Source: Trebouxia sp. TZW2008
Taxonomy: Eukaryota > Chlorophyta > Trebouxiophyceae > Trebouxiales > Trebouxiaceae
NCBI GenBank assembly: GCA_002118135.1
Contig: BDIU01000450.1
Location: 62,001-126,000 of the forward strand
Length of the DNA: 64,000 nt
Direction of reading: 5' to 3'
Positions within the stretch are counted from its first letter, which is position 1; each line of letters opens with the position of its first letter. The notes below the pieces were generated by a model. That model saw only the letters and a program-made list of their open reading frames with translations, made no database searches and was not told the DNA's origin. Made by a program: the position numbers and the translations under genes. Shown here in pieces: positions 3,184 to 64,000 of this stretch.

Positions 3184-3959
<776 letters not shown>

Positions 3960-4448: not shown

Positions 4449-4473
4449 GTCAGGCAGCCTATCTCATCACAAA

Positions 4474-5675: not shown

Positions 5676-5704
5676 TTTGTTGTTTGTAGCAAAGCTACAG
5701 CAAT

Positions 5705-6982
<1,278 letters not shown>

Positions 6983-7386: not shown

Positions 7387-10300
7387 CTAATCTGAGTCAG
7401 CTGCCTCTGCTTTGCTGGCCTTGTATGCAGCCATTTGCTCTTCATATCTTTTCTTGTCTTCAGCAGCTTGCTCCTCATAGGGCTTCTTGTCTTCTGCACT
7501 GACAGATTTCCACTTGTCGCCCAACACTTTTGCAACATCTGTGAAAGCGATGCCAGGGTTCTCTGACTTGACCTGCACAGGCATCATTCCAGGTCAGCAT
7601 AGCTGAGCAACTACTTGAATGCTACAGATGCATCAATTCTGCTTAGATAGTTGTGAGTGTACATTTTAGATTGCTGAGCCACAGAGATGATCGCTGAGCA
7701 GCTTGGCAACTCAGGTGCACTACCAAGGCTGTACGTGCCGCAATGCACATCTGCTGAAGCACATGCTGTTATGAAAAGCATGTTTGGCGGCTACAAGCAG
7801 TGGCAAAGTGAGCATCAATGCAAACAATATGCCAATCTGGCTGCCAGCAAGCAGGATATCAGGTGATTGCTGATGTTAAGGACGCACAAAAAGGTGTGAT
7901 TTCCCAGCATTTTGTGACATTATTGGGCATGACCTGCATGTCATCAGCTGACAACATGATGCTTATCGTACCTTTTCTCTGTTTGCTTGACTGAAAAACA
8001 TGAAGGCAGACAGGCCTCGCTTGGGTTCATTTTTGTCTTTCTTCTTCCTGGGCTTTTTGCCCTTGCCCTTGCCCTTGCCGCCCTCACCGTCTGCAGGCTC
8101 TGCAGAAGAAGCCTTGGATTTTGACTTTGCCTTCTTCTTCTCTGGTTTTGCTTCATCGGAGTCTCCAGCTGGTGTGGGGGAGGGTTTATGCTTGGCCTTC
8201 TTCTGCTACAACAAAGCGATGTCAGCAAAATGAGCAACAGGACACAAAACCTTGATCACACTATTTCAGCGCAGCGTATGCTGCATGAGTCTCCATGAAA
8301 GCCATGGCAAGGCAATTGTGGGCCTGCTGAGGCTGGCTAGCACGTGGTCTGAATGCATCAGTAAATGCAGGCAGTTGTGACATCGACAGCTTGCCTCTGA
8401 TGGATGCCATTGCTAACACACCTGAGAGACATGCAATCACGGCACTCTGACACAAGCAACTCTGGGCTATGAATCATACTGAGAGGAAGTAGTACAGCGC
8501 ATGGAGGTAGCGTTCTGCATTCATTGCAGCAAAATGCGCCGTCTCAATTTCAAGAGCAGCAAGGAATGCATGTTAGCTTCTGCTGGATGCAAATGTGTGC
8601 AATTTGCACCTTTGGCTGCTCATCAATCATCTCAGCATCACCGCTCTCAGCGTCACTTTCATCTGATGGCTCTCCTTCATCATCGTCTGCGCTCTTCATG
8701 TCAAAGTCAGCATCCTCTTCAGAGTCTTCATCCAGCTCGCCAGCAGCTTGCATTGACGCCATGCCTGCAGAACAAGTCAGCACAGCATTCGATGCATTGC
8801 TTGCTCATATGCGCCCATGGCAGGCCCAGACAGCCAAGGCAATTTGCACAGAGGCCAGCAGCTGCTTCAGTGCAAGAGTGCTGCCTGGAACAACAACATG
8901 AGGTCATTTTACGACACACCAATCTTGCTCTATTCGACAAAATGCTTGCAGGCTGCAGCAACTCAGAAGCAGTACAAACAAAACTGTTCATTGTCACTGG
9001 TGACGTTGATCAAGGCAATGCTGGCTTCTGTGATGAAGAGCTGCAAGATCAATGCTCAAGGGTACTCTGTCTTCTGTTTGACAATCTTGTGCCACTGCCA
9101 GAGGGTCATGCAGGTAGCAAAGTAACTGTCAACAGCAGGTGTGGACTGCTGATGCAATGCACCCCACATATGAGTGTTGAAAGGTGATGGTACATATCAT
9201 TTTTTGAGTCTGCATCTGAGTGTTGGGCTGTGACGCGACATTTGATTACCTGTGTCAATGTCCTCTCCGAGGTCCACATCAAGGGCTGCTCTGGCAGCCC
9301 CACTAGGGCCCATTTCAGCCTCAGCCACATTCTCAATGCGCAGCCTCTTGGCTTGGATGAAGTTGAATAGGTTGTTCCACTCTGACTTCTGTATACCTCT
9401 GAATTGAAACTCCTGCATCAGTGCATGAAGAAGTCAGTTGGTATCATTTGTGATGTCTGCAATGATACTGTTTCGATGTATTGGTGCGTGCTGCAGATGG
9501 TCCTGCGCAGCTGTACATTGTCATGCGCTTGCAGCTCAAACTTGTTTGCATCTTCACGCAGCAGTGCATGTTTGCTGAATTCCAGTTGCCTTGCGGCATC
9601 TGAGGCAAAGCATGGGTGCAAGCAAGTCAGCCACAGACAACCTGCCTGCAGCATTGCTGCACTGCACAGCACATTAATGCCATACAGAACAAAGCGTCTG
9701 CACCATCTGTGCCAGATACGTGTTGCAACACAGTACTGCCCAAGGTGCATAAACAGCATCAACTGTACACAGGTAGGTAGCCCTGACCACAGCGAACATG
9801 CACAGCGAACATGCAAGCTTGCATGGAATACTTTGTTTTGCAAGTCTGGCAGAAGCATGAGACAAATTGTCAGAGTTCATATGACTCTCCCCCTTCCTGC
9901 AGCCATTGCTAAACATGCTTCTTGAGCTTGATTGAACCACAAATCGCTTTTAGTGGGCAAAGATCTGCAACAGTGGTCATGCCAGGATGGTTCAAACAAT
10001 CATGAGAAAGACAGAGCTGCATGCAATCGCAGCGAGTCACAATGCTTGTTTGCGACTGCTTTTGGGTGTGTCTGTGCATTGGCGCAACTTTGCATTGCAG
10101 ACTTTGACAGTGCAGTGCAACTTACAGAGCTAATGCGTACCTGCTCTGCTTGCATGCGGATGGACAGGTCAAAGGTCTTGGCGCTGGCAGGGCCTCCTTG
10201 ACACAGAAATTGACAAGTGAAAATCACAGCTGCATGCAATGCAGCAAGTAACAATGCTCAATCATGAGCTATCTCCAAGTTTGTTACTGCATTGATGCAA

Positions 10301-13300
10301 TGACACCTGAAAAAGTGCTGTACGACAAGATGCAGCAAGAAAGATACAGCTAATGCGCACCTGGTCTGCTTGCATGCGGATTGAAAGGTCAAAGGTCTTG
10401 GCACTGGCAGCTAGCATGCCAGGGCCTCCTTGACGCAAGAACTCTACGCTCTCTATCTCATCATGCACTAGAAGGGTTGGCGGCTTCTGGACATAGAAGA
10501 ACGCCCGCTCTAGAGGATATAAGTAGCCGTCATCAGCCTGCAGAAACAACAATTTTTTTAGAAAGCAGGTGCTGTCATGTCTGCCAAAATCTTTTCCAAA
10601 CGAATCTTGACAAGGTCATTCATATTGAGACAGTAACAAGGTTGCGATGTTCACAGCTGCAGACATATGCCCAAACCGATGTAATCGATGCTTGGACGCT
10701 TCTGAAACAAAGCAACCCTGTTATGGCAGCTGTAAGCTGTGACAGCATTAGCAACTCAGCAGACACATACGTACATGAAGCTGTGAATGTGTTCAATCCC
10801 TGCCTGATCATGCAGCAGCCCTTGCATGGCATAAGCAGCTGTTGATGCACAGAGCAGGAAAAAACAGAGGCAAAGGCATGTCCCTGCTGACCTTGTATGA
10901 GCAGCGCACTGCGTAGCCAGCACCATCTGCTGTTCTGAAGGCTGATGGCTTGGTGAGCTTGGTGGCTGCCAGCCCCCTCAAGGTCTTGCTGAACACATCA
11001 ACCGCTGAGCCTGACAAGGACTGTTGCAGCTTGCCGCCACACTGTAGGCATACAACATTTGCTTACTGATTGCACGTGTATGGCATGAGACAATTGATTT
11101 TGGAACTGGGTGGCTGCCAGACCCCTCAAGGTCTTGCTGACACAGCAACTGCTGAGCCTGACAAGGATTGCTGCAGCTTGCCACCACATTGCAGGCACAA
11201 GCTGCTTTACTTATGCATTGCGCATGTATGGCATGAGAAGGTTGCTTTTGGTGGTGCTCCAAGGACATTGCCATCTTAAGCAAGCTGTCTGACACAGGAG
11301 CAGTAGTGAGCAACAAAGCTGCATGGCGGGTGCAGATGATCCTGGCACAGGTGCGGCTTAAGGAGGCAGCTGCAGTGGTGCTGCTCGCTGCAAACAGCAA
11401 TGTTAATAGATCACATACTCATGCAGCTTTGCATTACTGGTTCAAAGTCAAACACAACACTGATAACGTGAAGAGCAAACATGCAGCAATCAGAGGTCAA
11501 GTCAGTGTGATATGGTGCATGACAGTAGCTTATCCTGGCAATGTCTTTGGTGCAATCAAATCGTTCTGGGCAAAGCAGCAGCTTACGCCCAAGGAGAAAC
11601 AAGCAGCAGCTCCTTTGTCCTTTGCAGCCAGATGCTGACTTGCACTCTGAGGAGTGCATAAGGCAGTGCATGAGGCAGCTTTTAAGTACAGGCCCAGCTT
11701 ATCAGGTCTACATGCAGGACGCACTGTGATAGCACAATTCATGAGCTTGACATGCATCAAAGCGCGCTGATCAGACAAATTAATGAGCTTGACATGCATT
11801 AAAGTGTGGTGATGCAACAGAATTGGCACCTTTCCATTCTTTGCTTCAAGCTGCTCCTCTGTGATGTCCAGCTCAACATTGAGCTCCTCGTCATTGTTGA
11901 ACTGGCAAAGGATGTGTGGATAGTAGGTCTGACCCTTGCGAATGGGAGGATCCAGGGAGATGACAACCAAAGTCTGGGGAACATTGGACTTTGGCAACAC
12001 AAACAATCTGACAATGGAATCGTACTGTATTCTGTAGTCTTGCGCCTGCAGCACATATACAAACTCATTGCAACATATCCATGTAGCACGAGTTGTCATC
12101 CCTCACAAACGCACTAACATGCTGCTGACAAAGCGGTACTCGCCAGAGAGGAAAGTGTTGAGCAACAGCAGGACTCAGGCAACTCACAGCAGGCTGAATG
12201 CACTACTGCCTCTGCTATGATGCTGACGCCTTTCAACGCTGGGCTTTGAGTCAAGGCAATGCATCAAGCACTGTCGCTATTGCAGTTGTATGTCGGCATG
12301 GTGTGCACTTGCTTGCTGAGCCTTGCCTGCGCTGGCATGAGATCAATTTCAACACAACATCTGCAAAAGCAGCATTGATATGCACCTTATAGCTTGTCTC
12401 CTGCTGCTGCATGTGTCACAGAACACTGTTGCAAGTGTTGCACAGCGTACCTGACCAGTCAGTTTCAGGGACGACAGATACATCTCCACATCAAAGCGGC
12501 CACGAGGTGCCAGCAAGGACATGCTCTCCCTGTCAAAGGTGACAACAGCATTTCCAGCAGCTGCACCAGCGTCTGTAAACTGCACAATCTGGTCATGCAA
12601 CACCTGCAAGCACAGGCCTTTGTCAAGTCTTTCTCCCTGCATTGGACTGTCACAGAACTTGTTGTCCCAATGACTACCAGCAAAGCAAGCGTTGATATAG
12701 GTGTGGTTGCATTGATGAGTCAATGAATGTGCAGCATTGCAAGCAAGAGCTTTTATCTGCTGATACAGTCATGCACTTGAGCAATCAGCCATGACGACTT
12801 GGATCTAGCCTTGCTACGACTGCGCTGATATGGTTGTGCTGATCTTGCGTGCTTATGGTGCTTAGCTGTGCTGTGTCAGAGTGCTGCCCAAAGGAGCAAG
12901 GACAAAGGTGTGTGCACACACCAAAGCAGAACTTTCAGTCCCTTGAGGAACCAAAGGGGTTGTGGCAGTTTGCGTTCTGTATGCGGATCAAAAGCAGATG
13001 ATTGTTCAGGCTTTGACAGCAAATTGCCAGACCTCAAAAGGTCTGCAGGTGAAATAATATATCACCTGCTGAACCTGACTGATTACAACAGTTGACATTA
13101 TTGCATAGCAATGTGCATTGCATTGCTGTGCAGCAGAGAACTGACCTCAGCAGCGGAGGTGGTGTCCTCGCCACCAAATCTTTCACTGTCTTTGGGGACA
13201 TGGAAGGACATCTCAAAGAGGGCATCTTCATGGTCCCCTCCTGCTGTGTCATCTACAGGAAACTCCAGCATGACATCATCTCTACCCTTCTGAACCTGCA

Positions 13301-44279: not shown

Positions 44280-47200
44280 ATGACAGTCACAGTGTTGATG
44301 GTGGCGGAGAAGCCAAGTCTGGCGGCATCAATCGCGAAACATCTCTCGGGCGGCAAGGTGATGGCGCACCCAGCACGGATTTTGCTGAAAACTCTGCACA
44401 GAGCTGTAGTCGTATGCACGCACAGGTGCACTCTCGCAGATCTGCTTTGGAAGTGCACGAGTATGACGGCACTTTCAAAGGTCGCAATGCTCACTTCAAA
44501 ATGACGTCCGTGATTGGTCATGTCTTGAGTATCGACTTTCCCGCAAAGTTTCAAAACTGGGATACTACTGACCCGTCTACGCTATTTGACGCTCCCACCT
44601 TGAAAAATGAATCTAATCCTAAGGTATGCAACAGCATGCATTGATGCAAAGCTCCCATCACAGACGGTTGAACATGCTGTCAATCATTGTGATAACATTG
44701 TGCACACCCATGCTGTCCTGACATGTGGCACTTGAAATAAATTTCTGCATGACATTGCTTTTTGGGCTGTAAAGTGCAAGAACATATCGAGACTGTGGCC
44801 CATTGTACTCAGCATTCCAAGATCACTATGTTATGTGGCAGGCGCATGTATGCAAGCATCTTCAGTCCGAGGCAAAAGGCTGTGATATTCTGGTTCTATG
44901 GCTGGACTGCGACAGAGAAGGCGAGAACATCTGTTTTGAGGTGCAGCAATCTTGCTCCAGCAACAAGTGCAAGCTGAAGGGTGACTTATGCCTGTGCTGT
45001 CAAACGGACAGTCACCGTTGTCATCTTCTCATGCTTTAGCATCTTCACTGGGTCGAGCCTCTTGTACAGGTCCATTTGTTTGTATTACCATGACAAAGAT
45101 GTCCTTTCATGAGCGTTTGCATTGCATGTTCTGGTGAGGCAACTGCAGTGGTTGCCTGACCACTGTAGCACATGGCACTATCTCTGCTTCCTGTGGGCCT
45201 GCGTGCATTTTGGGGCATGGTTTCAATGATAAGCTTTCAGTGTGCGCACTGCATGCAGAGCTGCAGCGGCATGACTGTTTAGTTGCCAGCGTGACATTGC
45301 AGCATGCTCTGTGTTGCAAGCAACAATCGAGTTATGGATTGGCTTGACTTTCACAGCTTGATATATGACGGGGCAAAAAGTACATTTGTACATTGCTTGC
45401 GCACTTAATCTTGATATATCAAACATACATAAACAGTGATCACAGCATAGTCAGTGCATGTTATAGGTGATGGACAACACACTGAGGTGGATGCACAGAG
45501 CAGAGGGGCAGCAGGTGTATAGGGCCCGCTTCTCTGCTATCACTGCCCCAGAGATCAGAGCTGCCATGGTATAACTGTAGTAAAGTTACAGCATCTTACT
45601 ACAGCAATTCCATTTGCATGGTTTGTTTTTGTACTTACTTGAATCAGAGCTCCTTGCATCACGCATCACTCCTGTCTGGCCAGGATTAGACAGCACTAGG
45701 CGCTCTTACCATTGATTCACGCACTCAACTTACCATTGCAGCACATGCTGCAGCATCAACAGATTTGGCACATGTGCTTGCCTGTGTTTCAGTTCATGCG
45801 CTTGATCAAACATACAGCGTCACAGGGCACACAATGCAAGCCCCTCCCATGTTTGGATCTACTAGCCCAGTTTGCGTTTTGCACATTGCACAGGTTGTGT
45901 TATGTTGTATGGAATGCAAAGTCACAGTCAACATGGCTACGAATTGTTGCTCCAACCACAATCTCCAGTGGCTCAATCAGCATAGACTCTGCTATATTTT
46001 CACCTTTTGTCATTTTGGGAATGGATGTTTTCCTGCAGAGTAAATCAGGCAAGCCCAACAGAATATGTCAGTGTCAGTAATTGCCAGCAGAATAATAAGC
46101 ATGCATGCAATACACACAATTTCAAAGGCTGTTCATGCTGCAGAACAAGTTGGGTGAGCCCAACAGAAATGAGGCGTTGTCAGTGGATGCCCGTCAGGAG
46201 CTGGACCTGAAGGTTGGTGTGGCCTTCACCAGATTTCAGACCCGCTTCTTTCAGGTAACTCATCTGTCGTGCATCACGCTGCGAACAGTCGCCCTCAAAC
46301 TTCCCGCAGCCAAACCAGCGCTGCTTGGTCATCAAAGCTGTTGTGTTGTGCACGCTTGGAACCCACTTTTGGTTTGAGTATGCTGTCTTGAAATGGCTCT
46401 TGTGTCAAACATGCTGTGCTGAGCTCACCTGAAAGCTGCTTTTGCTTCAAAGCTGCTGTGCTGTGCCTGCAGGGTAAGTATGGCAATCTTGACGCCTCAG
46501 TAGTGTCATATGGCCCGTGCCAAACCCCCACCCTCAATTTCTGTGTCGAGCGTCACCAAAAAATAGCCAGCTTCCAACCTGAGCCATTTTGGGTTGTAAG
46601 ACCCCATGTCAGCAAGGGGGGTCAGGACATCACCTTGGAGTGGGGTAGGGGGCGCTTGTTTGACGTGGATGTGGCACAGATGTTCATGAGAGTTGTTAGC
46701 GATGGGCAACAGCTGAAGGTAACAATCACATCTGAGCTTGTTGACTAAAGTACACGGCTGCAATGTCCACAGCTTGACCCCTCATATGAGCAAGGGGGGA
46801 AAGGACATCACCCTAGAGTGGGGTAGGGGGCGCTTATTTGATGTAGATGAGGTGCAGATGTTCACGAGAGTTGTTACCGACGGCCAGCAGCTGAAAGTAC
46901 TCTTTGCAAGTCTGTCTATCTGTCTGTCTGGCTGCCTGTCTGCCTGCCTGCCTGCCTGCCTGCCTTCTTATCAATGTCCACAATCTTGGTGCCTATGCAG
47001 GTCACTTCAGTGAGTGAGAAAGAGGAGAGGCGGGGCCGGCCGCACGGGCTGAACACAGTGGAGCTGCTGAAGGTGGCGTCCTCAGCGCTCAACATGGGCC
47101 CTGCGCATGCCATGCAGATCGCTGAGCGCCTCTACACCTCAGGTACGACTTGCTAGATAGCTTTCTGCAACATCTGTCATGTAATGATACCAGGCCTGAT

Positions 47201-50200
47201 ATGTAGGTCCAACCCTATGGTGGCTATGGTAATGGCCGCATGTCAAGCAAGTGTCGCATTTACAGAAATCCAGTTTTGCATGCTCATGCCATGCAGATCG
47301 CTGAGCGCCTTTACACCTCAGGTGCAACTTGCTAGATAGCTTTCTGCAAAATCTGTCACATAATGACACCAGGCCTGATATAGGTCCAGGCCTATAGCTG
47401 CCATGCTAATGTAAGCATGTCAAGCGGATGTTGTACTTATATGCAAAATCCAGTCATCCATGACAACATTTTTGCGTGCTGATGCCAAGCAGATTGCTGA
47501 GCGCGTCTACACCTCAGTTCCGGCTTGCTAGATCAATGCCAAAGGCATGCACATAATTGGAGCAGGATGCAGATCAAGCAGGCTTGACTGTCCCATACAG
47601 TGAAGTGTTTTGGCAAGATAGGGCTTCAGCCACACACACTCAATACTTGTGCTGGCACATGTAACAACAGTTGATTTGCGCTGAGCATTACTCTCACGTT
47701 TGCAGTTGTGTTTGCTTTACTCAGTATCATCGTCATCATTACCGTTTTGTAAAATGAGAGCATTGTCTGCAGGGTATCTGAGCTACCCTAGGACTGAGAG
47801 CACAGCCTGTCCCAATGGTTTTCACTTCAATGAGGTCCTGGCGGCACAACAGCTTATTATTGCTATTGTAGCATTGTAGATGTCATCGTGTTCATTGTCT
47901 TTCCTTTGGCATTGCATGATTGTTTGCAGGGTATCTGAGCTACCCTAGGACTGAGAGCACAGCCTATCCCAGTGGGTTTGACTTCAATGAGGTCCTGGCG
48001 GCACAAAGGCGGCACCCCATCTGGGGAGACTACACTTCTGCCATTATGGCAAATGGCTTTAGCGCTCCAAAGGTAGTCTAGGCTTCATGTTGATTTCCGC
48101 CCTCCCCCAAATGGTCATGCCCAAAGCGTCTGTCCTGTATTCCTCTTCATTATCTTCTTCAACAATGGTGGCGTTCAGCATTTGGTCCTTGTTCTTTTAC
48201 TTTATCCTCTTCTTCCTCTTCTAATTCAGCACTGTGCCTTGTGCAGTGGGGTACAGATGTTGGGGACCATCCCAACAGGGTCATGGCTACTGAATTGGGC
48301 GCTGATGCTTTGCATATTTGCAGAACCATTACATTATATCATAAAAGCAGGTCCTTTTTCTCTTCATCATGTGCCGCTCTTGCCGCTAGCTATGTGCCTT
48401 GCCCAGGGGGTTACAGACATAGCCCCCCCCCCCCCCCCCCCCCCCCCCACCCNNTGGGCCCCCCCCCCCCCCCGCCCCCCAGCACCACCTCAGTGGTCAT
48501 GGCCACAGATGCTGACTTGGACACCCACTGCTGGCACATTTACAACACCAATGTGCAGCAATGCCTCTTCTTCTTCTTCATCCCTTCCATCCTCATGTTC
48601 TTCATCCCATTCATCTTCGTCTTGGATGGATTGCAGGGGGGTACAGACGTAGGGGACCACCCCCCCATCACCCCAGTGGTCATGGCTACAGACGCTGACC
48701 TGGACACCGACTCCTGGCGTATTTACGACTATGTTACACGGCACTTCCTGGGGTCAGTCAGCCCTGACTGCGTGTACAAGCGAACAAAAGCTAACTTCAG
48801 CTGTGCTGGTGAAACCTTTTCTGCCAGCGGCACAACTCCTGTCAGGCCAGGCTTTACTGCAGTTATGCCTTGGAGGGTGAGTCACAATTCTAGGCCTCAA
48901 AGTGCCTCTACAGTCATTGCTTGCTTGAATCTTTCAGTGTCAAGTGTGTCTGCTGATGTATCAAATGCAGCTTCAAAGTCGTGCTGGAAAAAGCTTTTCT
49001 GCCAGTGGCACAACTTCTGTCAGGTTGGGACTCACTGCATTACTGCCTTGCAGAGAAGTTTCCAGTGTTTTGCCTTTCAAATTTCCAGCCATCATTGCTT
49101 GCTAGGGACTGCCAGTCTTGACTGTGTCGAAATGAACTTTCATGACTTCACGGACATCCTGGTCATTCCCATGCAATGCGCTTGCACACAAGGCTTTGCT
49201 TGCCAGCTTGACTCCAAAGCATGCTTGCCATACACAAGAAAGATGAGGCTCATGTCAAAGGTGTACAGCATGTGCAGCATGTGCAAACTGCTACAGATAG
49301 TCACAGATACCTTTGGAATATGGGATCATATGCAGGTGTTCAAGTTTATTCTTGATTGCCTTGATTGTCTCAATATTTGATCAGGTTTTGAGACACGCGA
49401 TCAGCCTTGTTGGCTGGCCAAAGCGCGAAAGCTCTCTCTCTCTCTCTCTGGCACAAGTCTCACAGCATTGCAGAAATACACAGGTCACTACACCAGAAAT
49501 ACATCAGGTGCTCTTGTCATTGCAAACTTGCTTTTGTGACTGCTCAGGCTATGGAGGGACAACCGCTGCCAAATCTTGTTGAGGGTGAAATCCTACCTAT
49601 CAAGGAAGTCGAATTGCACCAGGTAAGGCATACAGTGCTGTGAATTTGCAACATCAGCAGCCGTGATGCTGTTTGATATTTGAGTTCGCTGATGTCTGAT
49701 ATATGATGTTGGTATCAATGATATCCAAATCTGCATTTGAGGCTGATTCTCAAGTACTCACATGAGTTGAAGCTCTTTTCTGCTCGCATGTTGACATTCA
49801 GATGCTGCTTTGCCTGACAGTTGTTTGCAGCTTCATGTTTCAAGATTGCAACTGTCAGGCCAGCTTGACTGTAAATGGCAAGGGGTCATGACTGCACCTA
49901 CTATGCCAAAAAGCAATGCTCTCACACAGGCATTGCTGTTCCTTACAGGGCAAAACATCTGCACCAGACTACTTGACAGAAAGTGAGTTGATCTCACAAA
50001 TGGAGAAGCACGGCATTGGCACAGATGCTTCCATTCCAGTTCACATCAATAACATCAGTGAGCGAAACTACGTCACAGTCCAGTCTGGGCGGCGGGTTGT
50101 GCCAACTGAGCTTGGCATAACTCTTGTCAGAGGCTACCAGCTTATAGATCCTGAGCTCTGCAGGCCACAGGTAACTTTGCAACCACAGCAGAAGCCACAC

Positions 50201-51597
50201 CTGGTCACATTACTATGTCACAGTGCAGTCTGAGCGCTGAGTTGTGCAAACTGAACTTGGCACAACCCTTGTCAGAGGCTACCAGCTTATAGATCCTGAA
50301 CTCTGCTGATCACAGGTAAGTTTACCACCGCAAAAGACACAGCAAACTTTACACGCATGAAAGAATTGTCTCAATGGTCTCTTTTGCCACATACATAACA
50401 CTTTCAAACTGAAGTTTGTCTGCAATCATAGGCTGCCTGGAAATGAACTGCAATAGCCATCAAGCAGTACCGCTTCCTGTGTGTGTTCTGCACGTGCTTC
50501 TGCATGTGCAGCCCTGTGCCTCACTGAGCACAACATAGATCATTGGCCCTGGGTGTGACTGGACCTCACTGAGGGGCTGCCAAGCTGTATACTGTATTGC
50601 CTAAAACAGTAAGAGTGCACAGTGTAGGTGCTCAGCCAGCTGCAGGGTGAGAATGCATTCAATGCCAGGCATGGCGGCTTTGATAACATGGTCTCAAACA
50701 GCATGATTGTCTGGCAGTGCGTGGCATTGTACTGTGCAAGGCCATGTAGAGGATGAGATTGGGTTGGTTGCAATGGGGCAAGCAGACAAGGGCGCAATTA
50801 TGGCCTTCCTGAGAGCATTCTGTCTCTCTGGAAGCAAGCATGCCTCACATTGTGTGGCAGAAATTCAGTACCCAGAAATTTCAGAAGTTGCGCGAGCTGG
50901 TGGCAAAGGGGTAGGCAAAACAGGATATGTTTGCTGCGCTTGTGTAGGTGCGAAGCCACGTGGAGGATCAGATTGGATTGATCGCCAAGGGGCAGGCAGA
51001 TAAGGACGCAGTAGTGGCTCACACACTTCAGCAGTTCCAGCAGAAGTTCCTGTTCTTTGTGGCCAAAGTTGCGCGAATGGATGCTTTGTTTGAAGCCAGC
51101 TTTTCTCCCCTTGCAGCATCAGGTACGCTCTGAGCCGCTTCATGGAAACTCAAATTGAACGTCGACACCAATCATGATTGCGATCATGTTGTGAACATTA
51201 AATCAGTTGTGATGGCAGTGACGGCGGTGATAACTAACTCACTTGCCTTGTGCCTGTTGTGAGGACCTCTACAGGCCCTTGGAAGACACTTTAGCTCACT
51301 TGCCTTTTCCTTTTGCGGAACATACCTTTTGTTATAGTTGTGCGTTTTGTATTGCAAACGTGAAGACCTCAAAAGACCAAGCTCATGATGCGAGTCTCTC
51401 CTATGCTGTGCAGGCAAGCCGCTGAGCAAGTGTGGCAAATGCAAACGGTACATGAAGTACATTGCGCAGCGCCCTTCCAGGCTGTACTGCCCCACTTGTG
51501 AAGAGGTGTATGCCGTTCCACAGGTCAGCCTTGCCTGCCCTACAGCTTGTGTTGCTATGATCTGCTTGTCACTTCAGACATATTTGTACACTTCTTG

Positions 51598-51660
<63 letters not shown>

Positions 51661-53864
51661 CATGTTTGCTTGCACGCAAAGTGTTGCCTGCTTCCTGACT
51701 TTATGCCACTGTTGCCTCAATGTCTCTGTTGCATAGCCTCTGTTTGCTGGCATGACAGCATGTGCATTGGGCTCAGAACACCATGCTGTCACAAACTTTC
51801 AAAGCTTCTATGACACAATGCAGCACAGCAACAGCAACCCAGCACATGTCATACATGTCAGAAATCTGGCTAGCTTGCAGGCTTCTGCTGGGACAAGTTG
51901 CCAATCCCTGCTCTTTGTCCGCTACTTGATGCTGACTGCATCACAGCAATGCCAGCCTCTACAACCTCTGTGGGTTGTTGCATAATGGCAGCTGCCTGCC
52001 GGCTGCCCTTTGCCCTTTGCTGCAATTTCAAGCCATGTGGTTTAACAAATGCAATGACTGTCTGCAGGGTGCGGCAATCAAGCTGTACAAGGGCCTAGTG
52101 TGCCCCCTAGACAGCTTTGAGCTGCTGCTGTGCTCCCTATCAGGGCCAGACGGCATGACTAACCCTCTCTGCCCCTACTGCTACAACAACCCTCCTTTTG
52201 AGGGCATTCAAAAGGTACCTGCTTGCTGCTCATCGGTATTGCTAGTGACTCAGCTGTAGCTGTCAAGCAACAATCTGCCCTTGCCCAAACCTGTGAAGGC
52301 CGCTTGTGGGTTAGCTGTCAGAAATGGTGTGTCTTTTGCTGCATTGTTAGCCTGCATTTCATATTGTGCACGACAGCTGCAGGTGATGCACAGAGTCACA
52401 AACGTTATTGTAGCTGCAATGGTCAAGCTCTTCTATAGGTCACAAACATAATGCTGTGTGACCTTGTGCAGGGCTCTTCGGAGGGCACAGGGGCCAGAGT
52501 GGGCATGCTTAGCCTGCTGTGGCCCCGCGCGACCCCTGCCCCCCCCTTGCTCCCCCCTGCATTAATTTATATACACAATGCTCTACAACACTCTTTGATG
52601 CTGTGCAGGCCTTCTGAAGAGGCCCATGCCCTGCACAAATTGCCCCCATCCCACCTGCAAGCACATCACACTTCAGCAACAGATGTCATGAGTGAAGTCC
52701 ATGCGCTTGTGCTTCTAATGCATGGTGTTGCTATGCAGGGCTCATCAGAGGGCACTGGGGCCAAAGGGGGCATGCCCTGCACGCTTTGCCCCCACCCTAA
52801 TTGCAAGCACAGCATGATTCAATAGGGACTGTGCTCATGTCCTGAATGTGACAACATGATAAGAGTTTTCCATGCATATGTACATATGATGTATGATCAT
52901 ATGGTGCAGGGCTCTTCAGAAGGCACTGGGGCCAAAGGCAAAATGCCCTGCACGCTGTGCCCCCATCCTACTTAAGCATGATTCAACAGGGATTGTCATC
53001 CTGTCCAGAGTGTGACAACCTGACAAGTGTTTTCCATGTGTAAGTACATATCATGCATGATCACATGGTGCAGGGCTCTTCAGAAGGCACTGGGGCCAAA
53101 GGGGGCATGCCCTGCACGCTTTGCCCCCATCCTACTTGCAAGCACAGCATGATTCAACAAGGACTCTCTTCCTGTCCAGAGTGTGACAATGGAACCCTAG
53201 TGCTAGACCCTGTCAGCGCCCCCAAGTGGCGGCTGGACTGCAACAGATGCAGCTTCCTGATTTATCTTCCTGCTGAGCTGCACAATGCCAAATTGTCCAA
53301 GCAGCACTGCGAGGTAAGCATCAAGCAGAGACTTGCTGATACTAATGTTGATGCAGATGCTGATGTCAATGTTGATGTGGATAACAGCAATGATGAGTGC
53401 ATGTCCTCCTTGATTGAAAGAAGGCTGCAGGAGTGTGACTCAAAGCTGGTGGTGTTAAATTGGAAGAAAGGCAAAGCACCTCTGGCAGAGGACCAGACAG
53501 AGTATACCGGCTGTGTGGTGTGTGATGAGCTGCTACAGCCACTGCGTGCAGTCAGACACGGCAGGAAACATGCTAAAATCTTCAATTCAAGAACCTGCTG
53601 CTTGTGCTGCAGGAGTGTGACTCAAAGCTGGTGGTTTTGGACTGGAAGAAAGGCAAAGCACCCTTGTCAGGTGCCCAGACAGAGTACACAGGCTGTGTTG
53701 TGTGTGATGAGCTGCTGCAACCGCTGTGTGAGGTCAAACATGGCAGAAGCTATGCCACAAGACCTGGCAGGGGGGGTCGCAGGGGTAGAGGCAGGGGGCG
53801 GGGGAGGGGACGAGGACGAGGAAGGAAAGCGGAAGACCCACGCATGAGCTTTAGAGACTTCTAG
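44280..53864 (+). CDS. TOP3B: DNA topoisomerase 3-beta
   Basis: Type IA topoisomerase that passes single strands of DNA and, in animals, also RNA. Sixteen phase-consistent exons: 44280-44357, 44426-44623, 44842-44940, 45467-45568, 46144-46254, 46473-46718, 47001-47142, 47930-48072, 48637-48876, 49548-49622, 49949-50170, 50948-51122, 51414-51523, 52068-52214, 53074-53313 and 53613-53864, giving 859 aa (human TOP3B has 862). Toprim residues are E10 (MVAEKPS) and LDCDREGEN. The active-site Tyr is Y330 ([10 protein letters not shown]). Other family blocks: [58 protein letters not shown], three Cys-pair zinc ribbons, and an Arg-Gly-rich C-terminus that resembles the RNA-binding RGG box. Nine exons are flanked by partial junction copies. 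The start agrees with the family N-terminus. Confidence 0.96.
46031..46190 (+). repeat. Acceptor-side copy of TOP3B exon 5
   Basis: TCCTGCAG plus about 40 bp at 46039 (GTAAATCAGGCAAGCCCAAC) repeats the true junction at 46144 (ACAAGTTGGGTGAGCCCAAC), offset 105 bp. The copy is short and out of frame. Confidence 0.75.
46600..46896 (+). repeat. Donor-side copy of TOP3B exon 6
   Basis: The last 40 codons of exon 6 ([18 protein letters not shown]) and its donor at 46718 are repeated 178 bp downstream, ending at 46896 with a GT donor. The copy is open ([20 protein letters not shown]). Entering it through the nearest acceptor in phase 0 hits a stop, so it is unlikely to be spliced in. Confidence 0.92.
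46912..46964 (+). repeat. CTGT/CTGC tetranucleotide microsatellite
   Basis: Repeated CTGT and CTGC units in TOP3B intron 6. It is simple sequence only. Confidence 0.85.
47101..47517 (+). repeat. Three-unit donor-side array of TOP3B exon 7
   Basis: The exon end ([13 protein letters not shown], donor at 47142) recurs ending at 47321 (donor AG|GTGCAA kept) and 47517 (GT lost to TT). Offsets are 179 and 196 bp. Each unit carries the following intron as well (CTTGCTAGAT, CCAGGCCTGATAT, AATCCAGT), so whole junction units of about 180 bp were duplicated. Confidence 0.93.
47761..48010 (+). repeat. Acceptor-side copy of TOP3B exon 8 (active-site exon)
   Basis: TGCAG plus GGTATCTGAGCTACCCTAGG occurs at 47773 and at 47930, 157 bp apart. 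The upstream copy is about 79 bp long and open ([16 protein letters not shown]), including the catalytic Tyr, but has no donor at its end. The downstream copy is the full exon. Confidence 0.93.
48241..48740 (+). repeat. Three-unit array at TOP3B exon 9, with poly-C and gap
   Basis: Acceptor plus exon start (GGGGTACAGA.. GGGGACCA) occurs at 48247, 48407 and 48637. The third is the complete exon. In the second copy the place of the exon's CACCCCCCCATC has become a long C tract (48423-48480) with a two-base assembly gap (48453-48454). After the tract the copy resumes as [18 protein letters not shown]. Confidence 0.9.
49141..49460 (+). mobile_element. LINE 3'-end relic in TOP3B intron 9
   Basis: A degraded end with [14 protein letters not shown] and a stop, then ATCAGCCTTGTTGGCTGG and a (TC)n tail, parallels the relic at 43515-43853 (VFHYVIDCL, ATCAGCCTTGTTGGCTGG, TC-rich tail). 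Two insertions of one family are therefore present. Upstream coding capacity is lost. Confidence 0.65.
50060..50315 (+). repeat. Donor-side copy of TOP3B exon 11
   Basis: The exon end from TGTCACAGTCCAGTCTG through GGCTACCAGCTTATAGATCC to its donor (50170) is repeated 145 bp downstream, ending at 50315 with CACAG|GTAAG. The copy contains a TGA in the exon frame. Confidence 0.92.
50735..51060 (+). repeat. Acceptor-side copy of TOP3B exon 12
   Basis: The true exon starts at 50948. A copy about 205 bp upstream (from about 50741) shows [20 protein letters not shown] against [20 protein letters not shown], and parts of the second half of the exon recur at 50865-50930. The copy is frame-broken. 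Confidence 0.85.
51599..51660 (+). repeat. Uninterrupted (CAG)20 repeat in TOP3B intron 13
   Basis: Twenty perfect GCA/CAG units run without interruption. They create spurious poly-Gln, poly-Ala and poly-Cys frames. Exons 13 and 14 join in phase across it, so it is intronic. Confidence 0.97.
52469..53180 (+). repeat. Five-unit array at TOP3B exon 15
   Basis: The TGCAG acceptor plus start of exon 15 ([20 protein letters not shown]) occurs after 52471, 52608, 52738, 52909 and, as the real exon, 53073. Spacings are 137, 130, 171 and 164 bp. The copies at 52739 and 52910 extend through CKHSMIQ/CPECDN-like sequence and break by stop or deletion; those at 52472 and 52609 are more eroded, so the closest copies are the youngest. 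Confidence 0.93.
53421..53740 (+). repeat. Acceptor-side copy of TOP3B exon 16
   Basis: GCTGCAG plus GAGTGTGACTCAAAGCTGG occurs at 53431 and 53613, 182 bp apart. The upstream copy stays open for more than 45 codons ([17 protein letters not shown] to [10 protein letters not shown]) and is cut before the RGG tail. The downstream copy contains the RGG tail and stop and is taken as the real exon. Confidence 0.92.
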
Positions 53865-57548: not shown

Positions 57549-58014
57549 TCAACCTCTGTAGTCGCACTCAATGTTGTTGTCGTCCAAGTCAATGACAAAG
57601 CAGGCCAGGCCTTGCGGCACATGATCGCGTGGACCAGGTGCGCCATTGTCCTTGCCCCCATGCGCAACTGCAGCTGCATGAAACCCGCGTAGAGCTTCCT
57701 CTGACGGCGCCGATACAGCAAAGTGCATGCGCAGCGGTTTTTCCTCTGCAAAGAATACCTTTAACGTCAGGCAGCAATACATGCCGTCACAGACAGTGAA
57801 CGCCGGCCATGAAAACATAGCAGCGCAAAAGCTATGGCACTGCAGTACCTTGCTTGACAAAGATGAAGCCCTGCTTCTCGCCTGGCACGCCGAACCCTCC
57901 TCCTGTGCCCCAATCGGCTATAGGGACGTAACCCAAAGGCTTGAAAGCGTCCGTGTAGTACTGCTTGGCCGTCTGCCAGTTCTTGACTTTCAGCATAACG
58001 TGATCAAGACCCAT
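57549..58014 (-). CDS. VOC/glyoxalase-bleomycin-resistance fold protein
   Basis: Small metalloprotein of the vicinal-oxygen-chelate superfamily, 120 aa. Two exons: 58014-57849 and 57745-57549 (TGA), phase 1. Typical elements are MGLDHVMLKVKNWQTAKQYY at the N-terminus, GGGFGVPGEKQGF, and the C-terminal GLACFVIDLDDNNIEC. Candidate metal ligands are H5, H63 (MHFAV) and E115 (NIEC). Proteins of this type include lactoylglutathione-lyase-like and resistance-type enzymes, and the substrate cannot be inferred. It is divergent from the PPOX-FNR gene with a 393-bp gap. Confidence 0.9.
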
Positions 58015-58407
58015 GTCTGCTAAAGCGAGGAGGGACGACTCGAATACTTGGATTCGGGAAGAGTGGTGCGCAATGCAGAATCAGCAAGCTTGCATTTCAA
58101 TCGCGCGCAGTCGCTGAGGCCACCGTCAGTCGCTCCATAAATCTGCAAATTCCACCGCCGGTGTTGCACAATCAGTCATCAATCATCCATTCCTGGGTTA
58201 CGCAATAGTACTTTACTGCTGCTTTTGCTGGTGCTCTGAAACCATATTGCGCAACTTCCCCTGGCATGATCACGCAATGAGGCATGCGCCAACGCAGCTT
58301 CCGAACGATAACAAGAGATATGTCTATCTCAAAATCAGCAGTATCCCATGGGTCTCCGGCACGATTACCTTGCATAGCTTCACCTCAAGGCTGGTTGAAC
58401 AGTGCTC
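58015..58407. promoter_or_regulatory. Divergent promoter region of VOC and PPOX-FNR genes
   Basis: This 393-bp gap lies between two divergent start codons. It presumably holds both promoters. No motif was recognised. Confidence 0.5.
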
Positions 58408-61400
58408 ATGGTAGTCGACCAGGAAGCGCGAGTTCGCATATCGGGCTCCCACCCGGGACTTCTCGCGGTGCAGAGGCGCGTTGGCTCCGAAGCTTTCGCA
58501 AAGGCCCCAGACTTTCTCTCGTTGTTTGCTACACGACCCATCAGTCAACAATTACAAAAGTTCTTCCGTGACCTGCGACTCGTTTACACAGCGACGAGGT
58601 GAGTTCGTCCTGTTGTTGTGCACAAAATATCGTCGAGCAATATAGCCTTACAGTCAAGTGCCAACAACACCTTGCGCCTCGCTCACCAAGCCTTTTGCTG
58701 CGGTTCATGCCGTCGCCTGTGTTCAAATTTTACACAAGATAGCCACCAGCCTGCACAAAATGTCAATGCATCAGCCCTTGCATCAGCAAGTTGAAACCTT
58801 ATTGTTGCTGGCAGGGGTGACAGTGGGCGCCTGTGGGCTTCTGTGCTTTTTGGCAATCCCTCCTTCATACAGATCCCCAACACCTATCAGGCTGTGATCC
58901 AGCCAGTAAGGCACTTTGGCGGAGACCCTGCCAGGTACAATGCTGGAAGTGCTGTGGGGATGGTGGGAGTGATGCTCGAGAACAGGCGCAGGAATCTGCT
59001 GAGTGGAAAGATCTCCAGCTGTGAAGGGGAGCAGCTGACCATTGATGTATACCAGGCGCTTGGGAATTGCCCCAAATACATACAAGGTGCTGCACCATCT
59101 TTGTTTGCACAGCTGTATCTCGTCTGCGCCCAAGATGTTGGTTGCTACAAATAGCACGCAGCCTGCTGCTTGCATTGACGTCAATTGCAGCAGTCTCACA
59201 GCTGCACTTCTGCATCCAAGGGTTTCTTCTCATGTTGAGGTGCATGCACCTGCACTGATTTTGTTGATGTCAATGCTCAGAAATCATGACATTTGAGGCA
59301 TGACAATAACTGCTTAGCAATATGTAGAGCGCTGCCCAATGGCCTAATCTATCATCATGTAACTGTCTGAGGTATCAATGTCATGCTGCTGTCTACATGT
59401 CTCTCCATCACAGTTGTTCTATGTGCATTGCAGTCAGGGATTTAGAGTTGCGCAAGTCTGGCCTGGACACTGACAGCACGTCAAGCAACTCTGCGGCAAC
59501 TGGGCAGCAGACACTTGCCAAACCCCAGCTCGACTTGATTGCAAGGTCAGCATGCAATTGTTGATCACAAATACATTGCATATTCAGGTCACAAGGGCAA
59601 ATGAGAAACAACTCAGCAACGAGTTGCTTGTTGCAGACATGCCTTGCAGTTCAGGCCTGGACATTTCATGTTCATACTTGAGCTTGATGCTGCAGTGGCT
59701 TGATGCATTCAGCTTGCAGCAAAGCTGGTTCTGCAAACAGCAAGCTTGTTGCATCTGACAGTGATTGACAGCTCCTGCCAATGTTTGAAACATCAATCCT
59801 GAGTACGTCTAGCCTGTCCTGAGATAGTGACTGGGCTGCAAATCCATGCTCACAGTGAGCACATGAAAGCATGTATAATGCTAGAATGCTACGCACTGAT
59901 GCACAGGTCAGACACCTTCTTCATTGCCTCTGCACACAAGGCCAGCAGCTATGAGAGTAGCGGAACTTTGCCAGAAGGGTTTGAGGTGCTGCATATCAAC
60001 CACAAGGGGGGCTACCCGGGCTTTGTGCAGGGGGACCCCTCCGGCAGGCTGCAGTGGGGTGACTACATTGGCAACAACGCTTTCAGCACCCTAGGTGAGC
60101 AACCCTTGACTTATTTTAGCTTTCTGGTTCCTAGTAACTTTGCCAGAGGGATTCGAGGCACTGCACATCAAGCACAAGGAGGACTTCCCCGGCTTTTTCA
60201 AGGGGGACCCCTCTGGCAGGCTGCAATGGGGTGACTACATTGGCAATAATGCGTTCAGTACCTTAGGTGAGCAGCATGCACTTTTCCGAGTCGTCACTTT
60301 CTGCTAATTCATCTCTAGCTTTGGACCCATTAGGTTCAGTTTTGGGCCGTCTGACCAAGCATCATCTGCTCATACCAGCACTGGCTTAGAACCACAATAT
60401 GCAGTCACTCGCAGTACATGGTTTTGTACAATATGCTGTCCCCACCATCAGCTGCAAAGCATGCTGCATCTGCAACATTTAAAAGGGAACCTGTCCCTGA
60501 AGCCAGAAGCTGCTCTTTTGGTCATTGATTTTACCACAGGGACACACTGCACTTGTCAAAAACAACAGACATCCATGTGGACAGCACCTCATTTCCTGGA
60601 GCTCAAAGCATGCCCTGCCATCAATTGTAAAGCATTTTAGACTGACCACATCATGTGCTTTGCAGGAAATCTGTCACTGAACCCAGAAGCTGGTCTGCTG
60701 TTCATGAACTTCATTACAGAGGACACACTGCACCTGTCAGGAATAACAGAAATACACTATGTCAAACCAACATTGCAAGGACTCGATGCAGGCCGAAGTG
60801 TCAGGTCTAACGTATCAGGGTTCAACCACATTTTGTGCTTTGTAGGGAACTTGTCACTGAACTCAGAAGCTGGCCTGCCGTCCATTGATCTCACCACAGG
60901 ATTCAAGCTGCACTTAACAAGAAAAACAGCAATCCACTGGGGCACAATCAGCACTGCCAGGAACTCACTGCATGCCCGATCAGCAGCTGAACATCCTGTA
61001 CTAGTGACAGTCATGCTTGTTGCAGGGGACTTGTCACTGAACCCAGAAGCTGGCCTGCTGTTCATCATTCCGACCACAGGAGACACGCTGCACCTGTCAG
61101 GGACAACATGCACACACGGAATGAATCAATACAGCAAAAGACTCAATGCTGGCCCAAGCGTCAGGTCTAGAGCATCTGGGACCAATCATAAACTGTGTTT
61201 TGCAGGGAACTTGTCACTGAACCCAGAAGCTGGTCTGCTATTCATGGACTTTACCACAGGAGATACACTGCACCTGTCAGGGACAACAGAAATCCATTGG
61301 GATGAAACAGCACTGCCTGGGGCGCAACGCACAATCTACTTTCAGACAGAGGGATGGGTGCATGTGACTGGGGCTTTGCCGATTCACCAGCGTGGCTCTG

Positions 61401-64000
61401 TGCATAGCTCCCCATACAACCCAAGCCCTCCAAGTTCTCTCCATCAGGTGAGGCTTTGGGATAGATTGCAACTGAGCGGGGGAGTGCAACCTCTTGTTAA
61501 TGAATGCTTGAAACATGTCCTGCTTGTTCTGTTGCACCTGGCAGTGTCAAAATCAAAATCTGCCCAACTCCCTTCAACAGGACGCAGCAAGTTGCGCTCA
61601 CTACGTATTACCGAGTATCTCTCAACTCGCTTGCTCATGTCAACATCATAAATGCACAGCCACAATAGCGTGCTGTGTGTAAGCTTGGCTATCAGAAACA
61701 TTACAGATGCACCAGCAGCAAAGTTGACACTTGCATCTTGGTGGTGTCAATAGGATCTGGCCTGTATGGAACATAGTTTTGCAAGAGCAAGCCAGCAACT
61801 TAGGCTTCACACTGTTGTTTTGAATTGCTGCAGGCATCCAACACACAGAAGCTGAAGTGCATCAGCACCAAACAAGAGTCCCTGGACGTGATGTCGTTTG
61901 AATTTGAACTGCCTCAGCATGCTCAGCAGGAGGTGCTGTGTCAGCCTGGCCAGTTTGCATCCTTTGACTTTGAGAAAATTCAGCCTGGCAAGACTTTGAA
62001 CCGCACATGGACCATCAGTAGTCCAACACAACAGATCCAGCAGAGACAAGCTTTCACCATCAGTGTCAAAAAGGTAAGTAAGCCTGGCTTTGACTTTATT
62101 TATGCAGAATTGCAATGTCGTATTCCCTCTGAAGTCCAACGCAGCAGATCAACCAGAGACAAGCTTTCACAACCAGTGTCAAGAAGGTGATGCCAATGCT
62201 GTCACACCTTTCTCACTGAAACAGTGACTTCTGTTCATGACAAAAGCTGTGGTACCCAAAAAGTTGCCCTTATGGTGACTAAGTTTTCTGACTCAGCCCT
62301 GCAATCAGAAGCCAGTGATTGCTTCCCAAATGCACTATTCCCACAACAAGAATGTCTTGATGTTAAATGCGCTCCTGAAGAGATAACTGCACCAGAGCCA
62401 ATGGTGGAACATCACTCTGAATAGGCCTGTCTGCCCTGTTGGAGGCAAATGTAGTGTCTGGTGAATTGAGGGATCAATGACTTCATTTGTGTACTGCGTG
62501 TTTTTGCTCACGTGATGGCATCAGCTCAGTCACAAGCTCTATTGCCCTCTTACAGGGCGTTTTAGTGCCCAGTTGGCTGTTTAAAAAATTGCACCCAGGC
62601 AACACCGTCACCTTCAGAGGCATTGTTGGGGATTCCTTCTTATGCAATTGACCAATCCAAGAACGACCATCTGTACCTGTTTTGGTAAGGTTGTGTCTGA
62701 TCCCTCTGCAGGGAGGTTCTGTATCCAGCTGGCTCTTTGACAACATGCACCCAGGCAACACCATCACCTTCGGAGGCATTGATGGAGACTTCACCTTGGC
62801 CTTGGCAGCTGAACTAGTGAAGCATGAGCGGTCCAAGAATGGAGTGCTGTTGGCCGCAGGAGGCATTGGCATCAAATACACGATTCACAACTGCACTGTC
62901 AAGCAAAGCTTACTGCTTGCAGGGAGGTTCTGTGTCCAGCTGGCTCTTTGACAACATGCACCCAGTTGACACCATCACCTTCGGAGGCATTGATGGAGAC
63001 TTCACCTTGGCCTTGACAGCTGAACTAGTGAAGCATGAGCGGTTCAAGAATGGAGTGCTGTTGGCCGCAGGAGGCATTGGCATCAAATACATGATTCACA
63101 ACTGCACTGTCAAGCAAAGCTTACTGCTTGCAGGGAGGTTTGGTGTCCAGCTGGCTCTTTGACAACATGCACTCAGGCAGCGCCATAACCTTCAGAGGCA
63201 TTGACGGGGACTTCACCTTAGCCTTGGCGATTGGCCAATCCAAGAACGACCATCTGTTCCTGTAACTGTAAGGTTTCTGTGACCTAATCATGCACTGGCA
63301 AACAAGTCTGATGTCTCTGCAGGGCGGTCTGGTGTCCAGCTGGCTTTTTGACAACATGCATACAGGAAAGTCCATCACCTTCAGAGGCATCGACGGAGAT
63401 TTCACCTTGGCATTAGCAGCTGAACTAGTCAAGAATGATCGGTCCAAGAACGGAGTGCTGTTAGTAGCAGGAGGCATAGGCATCACACCCATGAGAGTGA
63501 TGCTAGCTGAGAGGCTGGCCATGCAGCTGCCGATCACGCTGCTTTACTTTGTACGCACCCTGCAAGAGGCGCCTTTTCTAGAAGAGCTTTGTGAGGTGAG
63601 TCTTCTTCATGACCGTGCAGAAGTTGCGCTCATAAATCATGCCCAAGACAGTAGTTTTGGCTGAAAGGCTCACAAGACAGCTGCTGGTCATGCCGCTGTG
63701 TTTTGCATGGACCAAAAAGTGCCATTATCTGAACAGCTTTGTGAGGTGAAGCTTTGTTACAATCGACATCAACATCATGAGAATGCTGCTAGCTGAGAGG
63801 CTGGCAAAGCAACTGCCGGTCACGCTACTCTACTTTGTATGGACCCTTCAAGAAGCGCCTTTTCATGACGAGCTGTGTGAGGTGAGGCATTTTGTGATCA
63901 GTGAGCACAGTACAAATGCCTCAAAAAACAACCATGAGAATGATGCTGGCTGAGGAACTGACAGCGCAACTGACGGCCATGCTGCTATACTTTGTACAGA
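58408..64000 (+). CDS. PPOX-like FMN split-barrel fused to FNR-type flavoprotein (3' truncated)
   Basis: Seven in-phase exons are visible: 58408-58598, 58815-59086, 59434-59545, 59907-60094, 61206-61447, 61834-62073 and 63323-63595, then a donor. At least 506 aa; the gene runs off the window. The N-terminal half matches the pyridoxamine-phosphate-oxidase-like split barrel of such fusions (LWASVLFGNPSF, LENRRRNLLSGKI, QALGNCPKYIQ, TFFIASAH, GNLSLNPEAGLLF). The second half is ferredoxin-reductase-like: an FAD segment R392-T-W-T (canonical R-x-Y-S/T, so Tyr is replaced by Trp) and GGIGITPMRVM for NAD(P). Bacterial relatives often end in a 2Fe-2S domain, which would lie outside the window. Reaction unknown, probably NAD(P)H-dependent electron transfer. 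It is the gene most heavily loaded with junction copies. Confidence 0.85.
59970..60266 (+). repeat. Donor-side copy of PPOX-FNR exon 4
   Basis: The exon end from ACTTTGCCAGAAGGGTTTGA to its donor (60094) recurs 172 bp downstream, ending at 60266 with a kept donor (CTTAG|GTGAGC). The copy spans about 130 bp at high similarity with small indels. Confidence 0.93.
60481..61380 (+). repeat. Five-unit 180-bp tandem array at PPOX-FNR exon 5
   Basis: Acceptor plus exon start (GGAACTTGTCACTGAACCC, encoding NLSLNPEAGLLF) begins its unit at 60481, 60661, 60841, 61021 and 61201: four intervals of exactly 180 bp. The last unit leads into the complete exon 5. The last four units lie in one uninterrupted frame from about 60653 to the exon, since 180 is a multiple of three. 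The first unit has lost AG context (AAAAG). Confidence 0.96.
62018..62188 (+). repeat. Donor-side copy of PPOX-FNR exon 6
   Basis: The exon end CAGAGACAAGCTTTCACCA..AGTGTCAAAAAG (donor at 62073) is repeated about 114 bp downstream as CAGAGACAAGCTTTCACAA..GTGTCAAGAAG followed by GTGATG at 62188. Confidence 0.88.
62551..63480 (+). repeat. Five-unit acceptor-side array at PPOX-FNR exon 7
   Basis: Units start after acceptors at 62555, 62711, 62922, 63133 and 63322 (the real exon); spacings are 156, 211, 211 and 189 bp. The second and third units are almost identical for about 200 bp and read GGSVSSWLFDNMHPG..GIDGDFTLALAAELV..GGIGIKY. Here the true exon continues as GGIGITPM. The low divergence of units two and three marks them as the youngest. 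Confidence 0.95.
63480..64000 (+). repeat. Donor-side array at PPOX-FNR exon 7 end
   Basis: The exon end (MRVMLAERLAMQLPITLLYF..ELCE, donor at 63595) recurs ending at 63745 and 63881 with GTGAGG-type donors, and a fourth unit starts near 63920 and runs off the window. Offsets are 150 and 136 bp. The same exon thus carries arrays on both sides. Confidence 0.9.

Follow-up and report, generated by a model that had tools for sequence, protein, structure and literature searches.

Partial copies of exon-intron junctions in a Trebouxia genome and their relation to a dense population of decayed small duplications, probably tandem in origin

Genes of the window and copies of their exon junctions

The window analysed here is a stretch of 64,000 nucleotides (C421:62001-126000) from the assembly of Trebouxia sp. 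TZW2008, which comprises 68.5 Mb in 527 contigs. Exons of six genes were modelled in 43 segments: TOP3B (16), POR (7), SSRP1 (9), carbonic anhydrase (CA, 3), aldo-keto reductase (AKR, 4) and PPOX-FNR (4). Exon limits are approximate except in TOP3B, being taken from coding-potential segments or peptides. Pfam confirms TOP3B on the plus strand and SSRP1 on the minus strand. Among the best 120 of 3295 homologs of TOP3B, the top-scoring match is from Coccomyxa viridis (71% identity), and in a tree of 28 rows the window sequence is placed among the chlorophyte rows without a supported sister. The other four genes we take to be POR, carbonic anhydrase, AKR and PPOX-FNR, following an earlier note on this DNA and the likeness of their peptides to such proteins.

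Several further features frame these genes. SSRP1 exons extend to 7396-9421, beyond the region in which the earlier note had placed its finding, and the terminus near 7.4 kb is presumably HMG-box-like. What we take to be a histone gene cluster, with peptides read as H3, H2B, H4 and H2A, occupies 3187-6979; an intron is apparent within H3 and local duplications are sparse. A long poly-C run containing N at 48400-48460, beside the copies of TOP3B exon 9, is probably an assembly gap or weak spot.

Each exon was locally aligned to its flanks; 150 control alignments to sequence from elsewhere were run alongside, and the threshold lay 4 above the highest of their scores. This search detected 36 copies beside 18 of the 43 modelled exons, beyond chance, and confirms the junction copies first described for the six genes in the earlier note (Table 1). 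The note had counted 24 junctions in about 23 of 59 exons. Its higher counts are compatible with ours, because the present gene models miss exons; junction by junction they were not reproduced. Copies lie on 22 exon sides, at 19 of which the boundary is inside a copy, and 31 of the 36 copies cross an exon boundary. A weak member of the set is the copy of CA exon 1 (48 bp, 75%, 684 bp away).

Table 1. Positions of TOP3B, of junction copies and of related repeats in the window (D, spacing between copies; percentages, identity)
Feature	Position	Strand	Evidence and remarks
TOP3B gene, 16 exon segments modelled, copies at 8	44280..53861	+	tblastn with homolog; Pfam Topoisom_bac and Zn_ribbon_TOP3B; copies
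TOP3B exon 6 end and 5' splice site, downstream copy	46776..46899	+	D 176, 85%
TOP3B exon 7 end and 5' splice site, downstream copy	47281..47332	+	D 179, 92%; intron part conserved too
TOP3B exon 7 end, second downstream copy, without GT	47477..47528	+	local alignment
TOP3B exon 8 3' splice site and start, upstream copy	47762..47849	+	D 157, 94% over 88 bp
TOP3B exon 9 start region, three upstream copies	48242..48546	+	48242-48319, 48404-48444, 48472-48546
TOP3B exon 9 end, downstream copy	48962..49053	+	D 177, 79%
TOP3B exon 11 end, downstream copy	50212..50339	+	D 145, 86%; two stops in old frame
TOP3B exon 12 start, two upstream copies	50622..50804	+	50622-50667, 50734-50804
TOP3B zinc-ribbon exon 15 start, four upstream copies	52466..53018	+	52466, 52603, 52734, 52901
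TOP3B exon 16 start, upstream copy	53424..53578	+	D 182, 83%
POR exon 5 start, upstream copy	39797..39934	-	D 198, 80%
Near POR exon 5 end, downstream copy	39331..39434	-	D 187, 82%; stops 24 bp before modelled end
POR exon 6 end, downstream copy	37341..37450	-	D 170, 76%
SSRP1 exon end and 5' splice site, downstream copy	10128..10205	-	92%
Complete 148-bp tandem duplication within SSRP1 gene	10955..11251	-	aligned 149 bp, D 148
Carbonic anhydrase exon 2 start, three upstream copies	26180..26497	+	local alignment
Carbonic anhydrase exon 2 end, downstream copy	26835..26874	+	D 156, 75%
Carbonic anhydrase exon 3 start, upstream copy	27186..27266	+	D 119, 89%
Aldo-keto reductase exon start, upstream copy	31927..32009	+	D 125, 77%
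PPOX-FNR exon 2 end and 5' splice site, downstream copy	60136..60273	+	D 172, 85%
Array of about 180-bp units between two PPOX-FNR exons	60484..61331	+	units 69-77% alike; self-BLAST
Near PPOX-FNR exon end, downstream copy	62125..62188	+	D 113, 84%; stops 19 bp before modelled end
PPOX-FNR exon start, four upstream copies	62553..63249	+	62553, 62704, 62918, 63129
Same PPOX-FNR exon, three downstream copies	63636..63997	+	63636, 63762, 63928

Some copies are incomplete. The first 20 bp are absent from the last upstream copy of TOP3B exon 9, and of the three downstream copies listed last in Table 1 the two at 63636 and 63762 hold the exon end, while the one at 63928 is cut by the end of the window. 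The array between two PPOX-FNR exons is overlapped by a 336-codon open frame; 180 is a multiple of three.

The strict geometry reported in the earlier note holds for all 36 copies, scored within 6 bp of the modelled exon limits. Upstream copies (n = 22) include the exon start in 20 cases and the exon end in none; downstream copies (n = 14) include the exon end in 11 and the exon start in none. A whole exon with both ends was found in none of the 36. As had been proposed, this geometry is explained by tandem duplications that break once within the exon and once within the adjoining intron. When duplications of the observed lengths were placed at random round the 43 exons, 80% were of the junction type, 5% took in a whole exon and 15% were exon-internal. 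Random placement thus yields mostly junction copies, and the junction pattern is what remains after exon-breaking arrangements are removed.

Outside the window we examined 22 exon pieces with kinase or XPG_I matches and found 11 copies at four of them, all kinase. The six upstream copies all lack the end of the matched piece and the five downstream copies all lack its start, the limits at the kinase loci being those of the Pfam match and not of the exon. From this set L008, one of 20 kinase loci, was dropped, as it is cut by a contig end; L042-L044 were included, and L041, L045 and L046 (the XPG gene with copies on C57) stand outside it. In the XPG-type gene on C57, one portion of a single Pfam model is matched three times within 480 bp. 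In L041 (C57:178778-179254), from this nuclease gene, one exon stretch occurs in three copies, two of them with stops.

Density and unit length of direct repeat pairs

Self-BLAST of the window gave 62 repeat pairs. The two copies lie within 800 bp of each other in 52, all of them direct, and 33 of these near pairs are spaced 110-220 bp. The same type of pair is common elsewhere in the assembly: 20 arbitrary 10-kb stretches, taken at round positions on long contigs, contain 194 direct pairs at 60-400 bp, covering 16.9% of the bases. Direct pairs per 10 kb number 5.67 in the window (computed on its first 60 kb), 9.70 in the arbitrary stretches and 7.37 at 20 kinase loci, with 0, 5 and 0 inverted pairs, respectively. 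Pairs are present in 26 of 26 10-kb stretches, with 2 to 21 in each, and block-shuffled sequence, Markov-resampled sequence and 50 kb of E. coli gave none. With six genes, arbitrary stretches and kinase loci all affected, the proposed independence of gene family and wide spread are supported.

The repeats are not confined to splice junctions, and a specificity for junctions is not supported. Modelled exons are touched by 22 of the 35 pairs in the six genes, where random placement would lead one to expect 16.9 +/- 2.9, and pairs abound in the arbitrary stretches. Selection on one of the two copies also eases the recognition of pairs that touch an exon. The six gene spans hold 35 pairs in 31.8 kb and the rest of the window 6 in 32.2 kb, roughly sixfold fewer, some of these 6 sitting just beyond the chosen gene ends. 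The low density outside the gene spans could reflect enrichment in gene bodies or a lack of conserved exons that anchor detection. In L033 (5595-9050) a single open frame of 1152 codons contains repeats in steps of about 51 bp.

Over 349 kb we collected 201 adjacent pairs, of which a few may be counted twice, since adjoining window pieces overlap by 700 bp. Spacing falls at 60-400 bp in 196 of them (median 161.5); the range 120-220 bp accounts for 138 and 220-400 bp for 18. Pairs that are not long arrays (n = 165, below 400 bp) have a median unit of 166 bp and an interquartile range of 134-194, and the median is 158-164 in each of four identity classes. Unit length is therefore humped near 166 bp and falls steeply above 220 bp; its shape towards short units is less certain, as units of 50 bp or less are undetectable by BLAST here. 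Simulated duplications of at least 80 bp were detected at mean rates of 0.83-1.00, and at the highest simulated divergence the rate was only 0.36-0.57 for 80-120 bp. TRF requires closer likeness. Its arrays have periods of 80-100 bp in 13 cases and of 140-190 bp in 19, beside 139 with periods shorter than 30 bp; a second period group near 90 bp may therefore exist. No 10-bp periodicity was found in the spacing of adjacent pairs. Nucleosome repeats and Okazaki fragments both belong roughly to the 166-bp length class.

Decay and age of the copies

The copies decay as non-functional sequence. Pooled over the 36 copies, mismatches at the three codon positions amount to 14.6, 13.5 and 27.3%, a ratio of 1.94 (bootstrap CI 1.61-2.31), which matches the value of up to about 2 predicted for a neutral copy beside an exon that drifts silently. 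Coding constraint on the copies had been considered, as the third-position excess in single pairs seemed too high; the pooled ratio is that of a dead copy. The frame is broken by 15 of 23 gaps. AG or GT is retained in 22 of 28 judgeable copies, close to the roughly 74% expected from 14% divergence per site; the remaining 8 of the 36 were left unjudged, either because no splice site lay close to the limit of the model or because the adjoining exon bases agreed at fewer than 16 of 25 positions. Decoy splice sites are not purged, and their retention is close to neutral. As intact decoys are tolerated, splice sites in this alga are probably paired across exons (exon definition).

These numbers bear on whether the copies might serve as alternative or mutually exclusive exons. 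Several copies do have an open frame, and most of those judged keep their splice dinucleotides. Such exons should be whole, and not one of the 36 copies includes an entire exon with both splice sites; moreover, the codon ratio is no higher than that of a dead copy, the frameshifting gaps argue against protein-coding constraint on both copies, and some copies contain stops. We regard a function of this kind as highly improbable.

Near-complete adjacent pairs (unit of 80-260 bp, 0.7 or more of it aligned; n = 91) have a mean identity of 81.2% and a maximum of 91.7%. None falls at 95-100% and 4 fall at 90-95%, followed by 22 and 28 in the next bins down. Among all 179 adjacent pairs of 80-260 bp, 13 are more than 90% identical, and their alignments cover a median of 0.41 of the unit. 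Pairs above 92% are short, partial or of a smaller unit, for example TOP3B exon 8 and, in L022, a 60-bp unit at 98%. A mutational process still going on, as suggested in the earlier note, is not borne out, with 0 of 91 near-complete pairs above 92% identity. A constant rate would give at least as many young pairs as older ones, which suggests that the process has slowed or stopped. The standard deviation of identity is 0.050, against 0.029 expected for a single age, so the duplications did not arise at one instant. If near-identical copies were collapsed during assembly, the very youngest pairs might be missed, but hardly those at 90-95%.

Origin of the duplications and alternative explanations

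The reading we prefer, with a probability of about two in three, is a decayed wave of small tandem duplications of nucleosome or Okazaki length, filtered by selection on exons. Units of about one nucleosome repeat or Okazaki fragment (median 166 bp) would have landed irrespective of gene structure. At exon edges selection would have retained only those layouts that leave one intact exon with both splice sites; selection for one intact exon places copies of exon starts upstream and copies of exon ends downstream. The losing copy would then decay neutrally in the intron and the surviving exon drift at silent sites only. Because the surviving exon changes only silently, junction copies stay readable longest. 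We infer that genuine tandem duplication gave rise to most pairs and that chromatin set the unit length.

The main rival is templated insertion, in which template switching or synthesis-dependent end joining would copy some 100 bp of neighbouring sequence into a site about 170 bp away. Among spacers of at least 25 bp between paired copies, 53 of 148 keep homology to an expected flank (p <= 0.05; about 7 by chance), and 95 of 148 show no significant homology even where the exon parts are 83-94% alike. Homology of the intron part is clear in the 179-bp exon 7 copy and the 164-bp exon 15 copy of TOP3B, weak at exon 8 despite the 94% of its exon part, and fails clearly in the spacer at exon 6. As a clean test of tandem origin, intron-part homology gave a mixed outcome, which we count against our preferred reading. 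The spacers without homology fit fast intron turnover and also fit templated insertion, which further draws support from the median aligned length (0.41-0.83 of the unit by identity class, lowest in the youngest). Many pairs have a spacer; in 21 the aligned length is within 15% of the spacing, and complete tandems, aligned over about the whole unit, exist in the window (10955-11251), in L040 (5522-5854) and in L021 (3855-4186). These tandems, the spacers that retain homology, the uniformly direct orientation of the near pairs in the window and the frequent crossing of exon boundaries, which tandem contiguity demands, all speak against templated insertion, and we judge it unlikely.

Artefacts of a fragmented assembly, with mis-joined reads or collapsed haplotypes, might be suspected from its 527 contigs and from the N in the poly-C run near 48.4 kb. 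Copies produced by read errors or alleles should hardly differ, whereas those found here are 6-27% diverged, carry frameshifts and decay neutrally, and pairs occur in every one of the 26 stretches; we give this explanation almost no credence. As regards introner-like dispersal, only 10 of 62 window pairs are more than 800 bp apart, and the junction copies match their own exon.

Ongoing intron gain through tandem duplication was suggested in the earlier note, which saw in the copies possible snapshots of it. It has precedents: an intron of potato RdRp was gained by tandem duplication across an intron-exon boundary, at the 3' splice site, with splicing supported by RNA-seq (PMC4974935), and tandem duplication of coding sequence with a proto-splice site is given as the source of some novel Drosophila introns (PMC2891723). 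The potato unit joins the 3' part of an intron to the start of the next exon, as do our 20 upstream copies with an exon start. The genome of the alga therefore has the raw material, and no product was seen: none of the 35 pairs in the six genes has both copies at least 30% exonic, and, once multiple tests are allowed for, duplicated flanks were not found at any of the 35 usable gaps that separate adjacent exons of the models (best p = 0.008). Here 37 gaps had been tested and two (TOP3B 1 and AKR 1) dropped, their high scores arising from overlap of the compared stretches; several of the 35 are long and may contain unmodelled exons. In contrast to the potato case, events in the alga are many and widespread, and no spliced product was seen. 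The Drosophila introns likewise involve local tandem duplication touching splice signals, but there an exonic segment becomes an intron, whereas the alga has dead copies of existing junctions in existing introns. Together with the lack of near-complete pairs over 92% identity, this makes ongoing intron gain very unlikely.

For the tandem duplications that we favour, two candidate mechanisms may be considered. Staggered breaks or nicks in neighbouring linkers could be followed by fill-in of the overhangs and end joining, or Okazaki fragments could be faultily processed. The 21 near-complete pairs show no breakpoint motif by eye, no edge base composition by GC and mostly little microhomology. 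In a set of 11 near-complete pairs the aligned span exceeds the unit by up to 6 bp, and in one of the 21 by 18 bp, the edges being blurred by decay. With neither edge motif nor composition and little microhomology, the molecular step is not readable from the sequence; the little microhomology weakly favours staggered-break repair over an Okazaki fault. A missing repair gene was considered as a cause and rejected. The assembly has matches to XPG_I, Ku and a family-A polymerase (DNA_pol_A), so no lost gene points to either mechanism; the XPG_I match on C110 (putative, one exon) we take to be FEN1-like.

Both mechanisms have counterparts in experimental systems. In human and mouse cells, fill-in by CST/Pol alpha-primase at breaks with 3' overhangs leads to small tandem duplications (PMC8355091); small size, local fill-in and end joining make this a candidate for the alga, although that study introduces them among short insertions (<100 bp), and ours show a hump near 166 bp. 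Yeast deficient in rad27/FEN1 accumulates ABA to ABABA duplications with a unique part of 1-91 bp and repeats of 1-21 bp (PMC5677150). The type of duplication, linked there to Okazaki-fragment processing, is alike; units in the alga are longer and show no clear flanking repeats, and a putative FEN1-like exon appears to be present.

The amount of duplicated exon sequence may also be compared. In a survey of tandem exon duplications, about 2% of exonic nucleotides in human, 0.08% in fly and 0.06% in worm have a homolog that is 80% or more identical (PMC9013439). For our six genes, which were picked for having copies, 18.5% of bases have such a counterpart, and for the 22 exon pieces chosen irrespective of copies 5.4%; methods differ, so the comparison holds to an order of magnitude only and human lies near the 5.4% figure. 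In both cases exon-like sequence is found within introns of the same gene, but duplicated exons are tied to mutually exclusive splicing in that survey, whereas the alga has partial copies. As a class of mutation, small tandem duplications are well established. In searches covering open-licence papers we found no genome with a sixth of its sampled bases in such pairs and a preference for about 166 bp.

If the length of the duplications were set by nucleosomes or Okazaki fragments, this genome would record a fault of repair or replication that laboratory mutants show on a smaller scale. Duplications at junctions are a route by which introns can grow, and they leave many near-identical pairs of splice sites, of which presumably one is used and one ignored. 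We propose tentatively, and consider it rather less probable than its converse, that a time-limited, genome-wide pulse duplicated one nucleosome or Okazaki fragment per event and then largely stopped, which would be a new kind of mutational pulse. By extrapolation, such a pulse, if true, would have left a natural library of dead beside live splice sites and would offer a direct test of how the algal spliceosome chooses between them.
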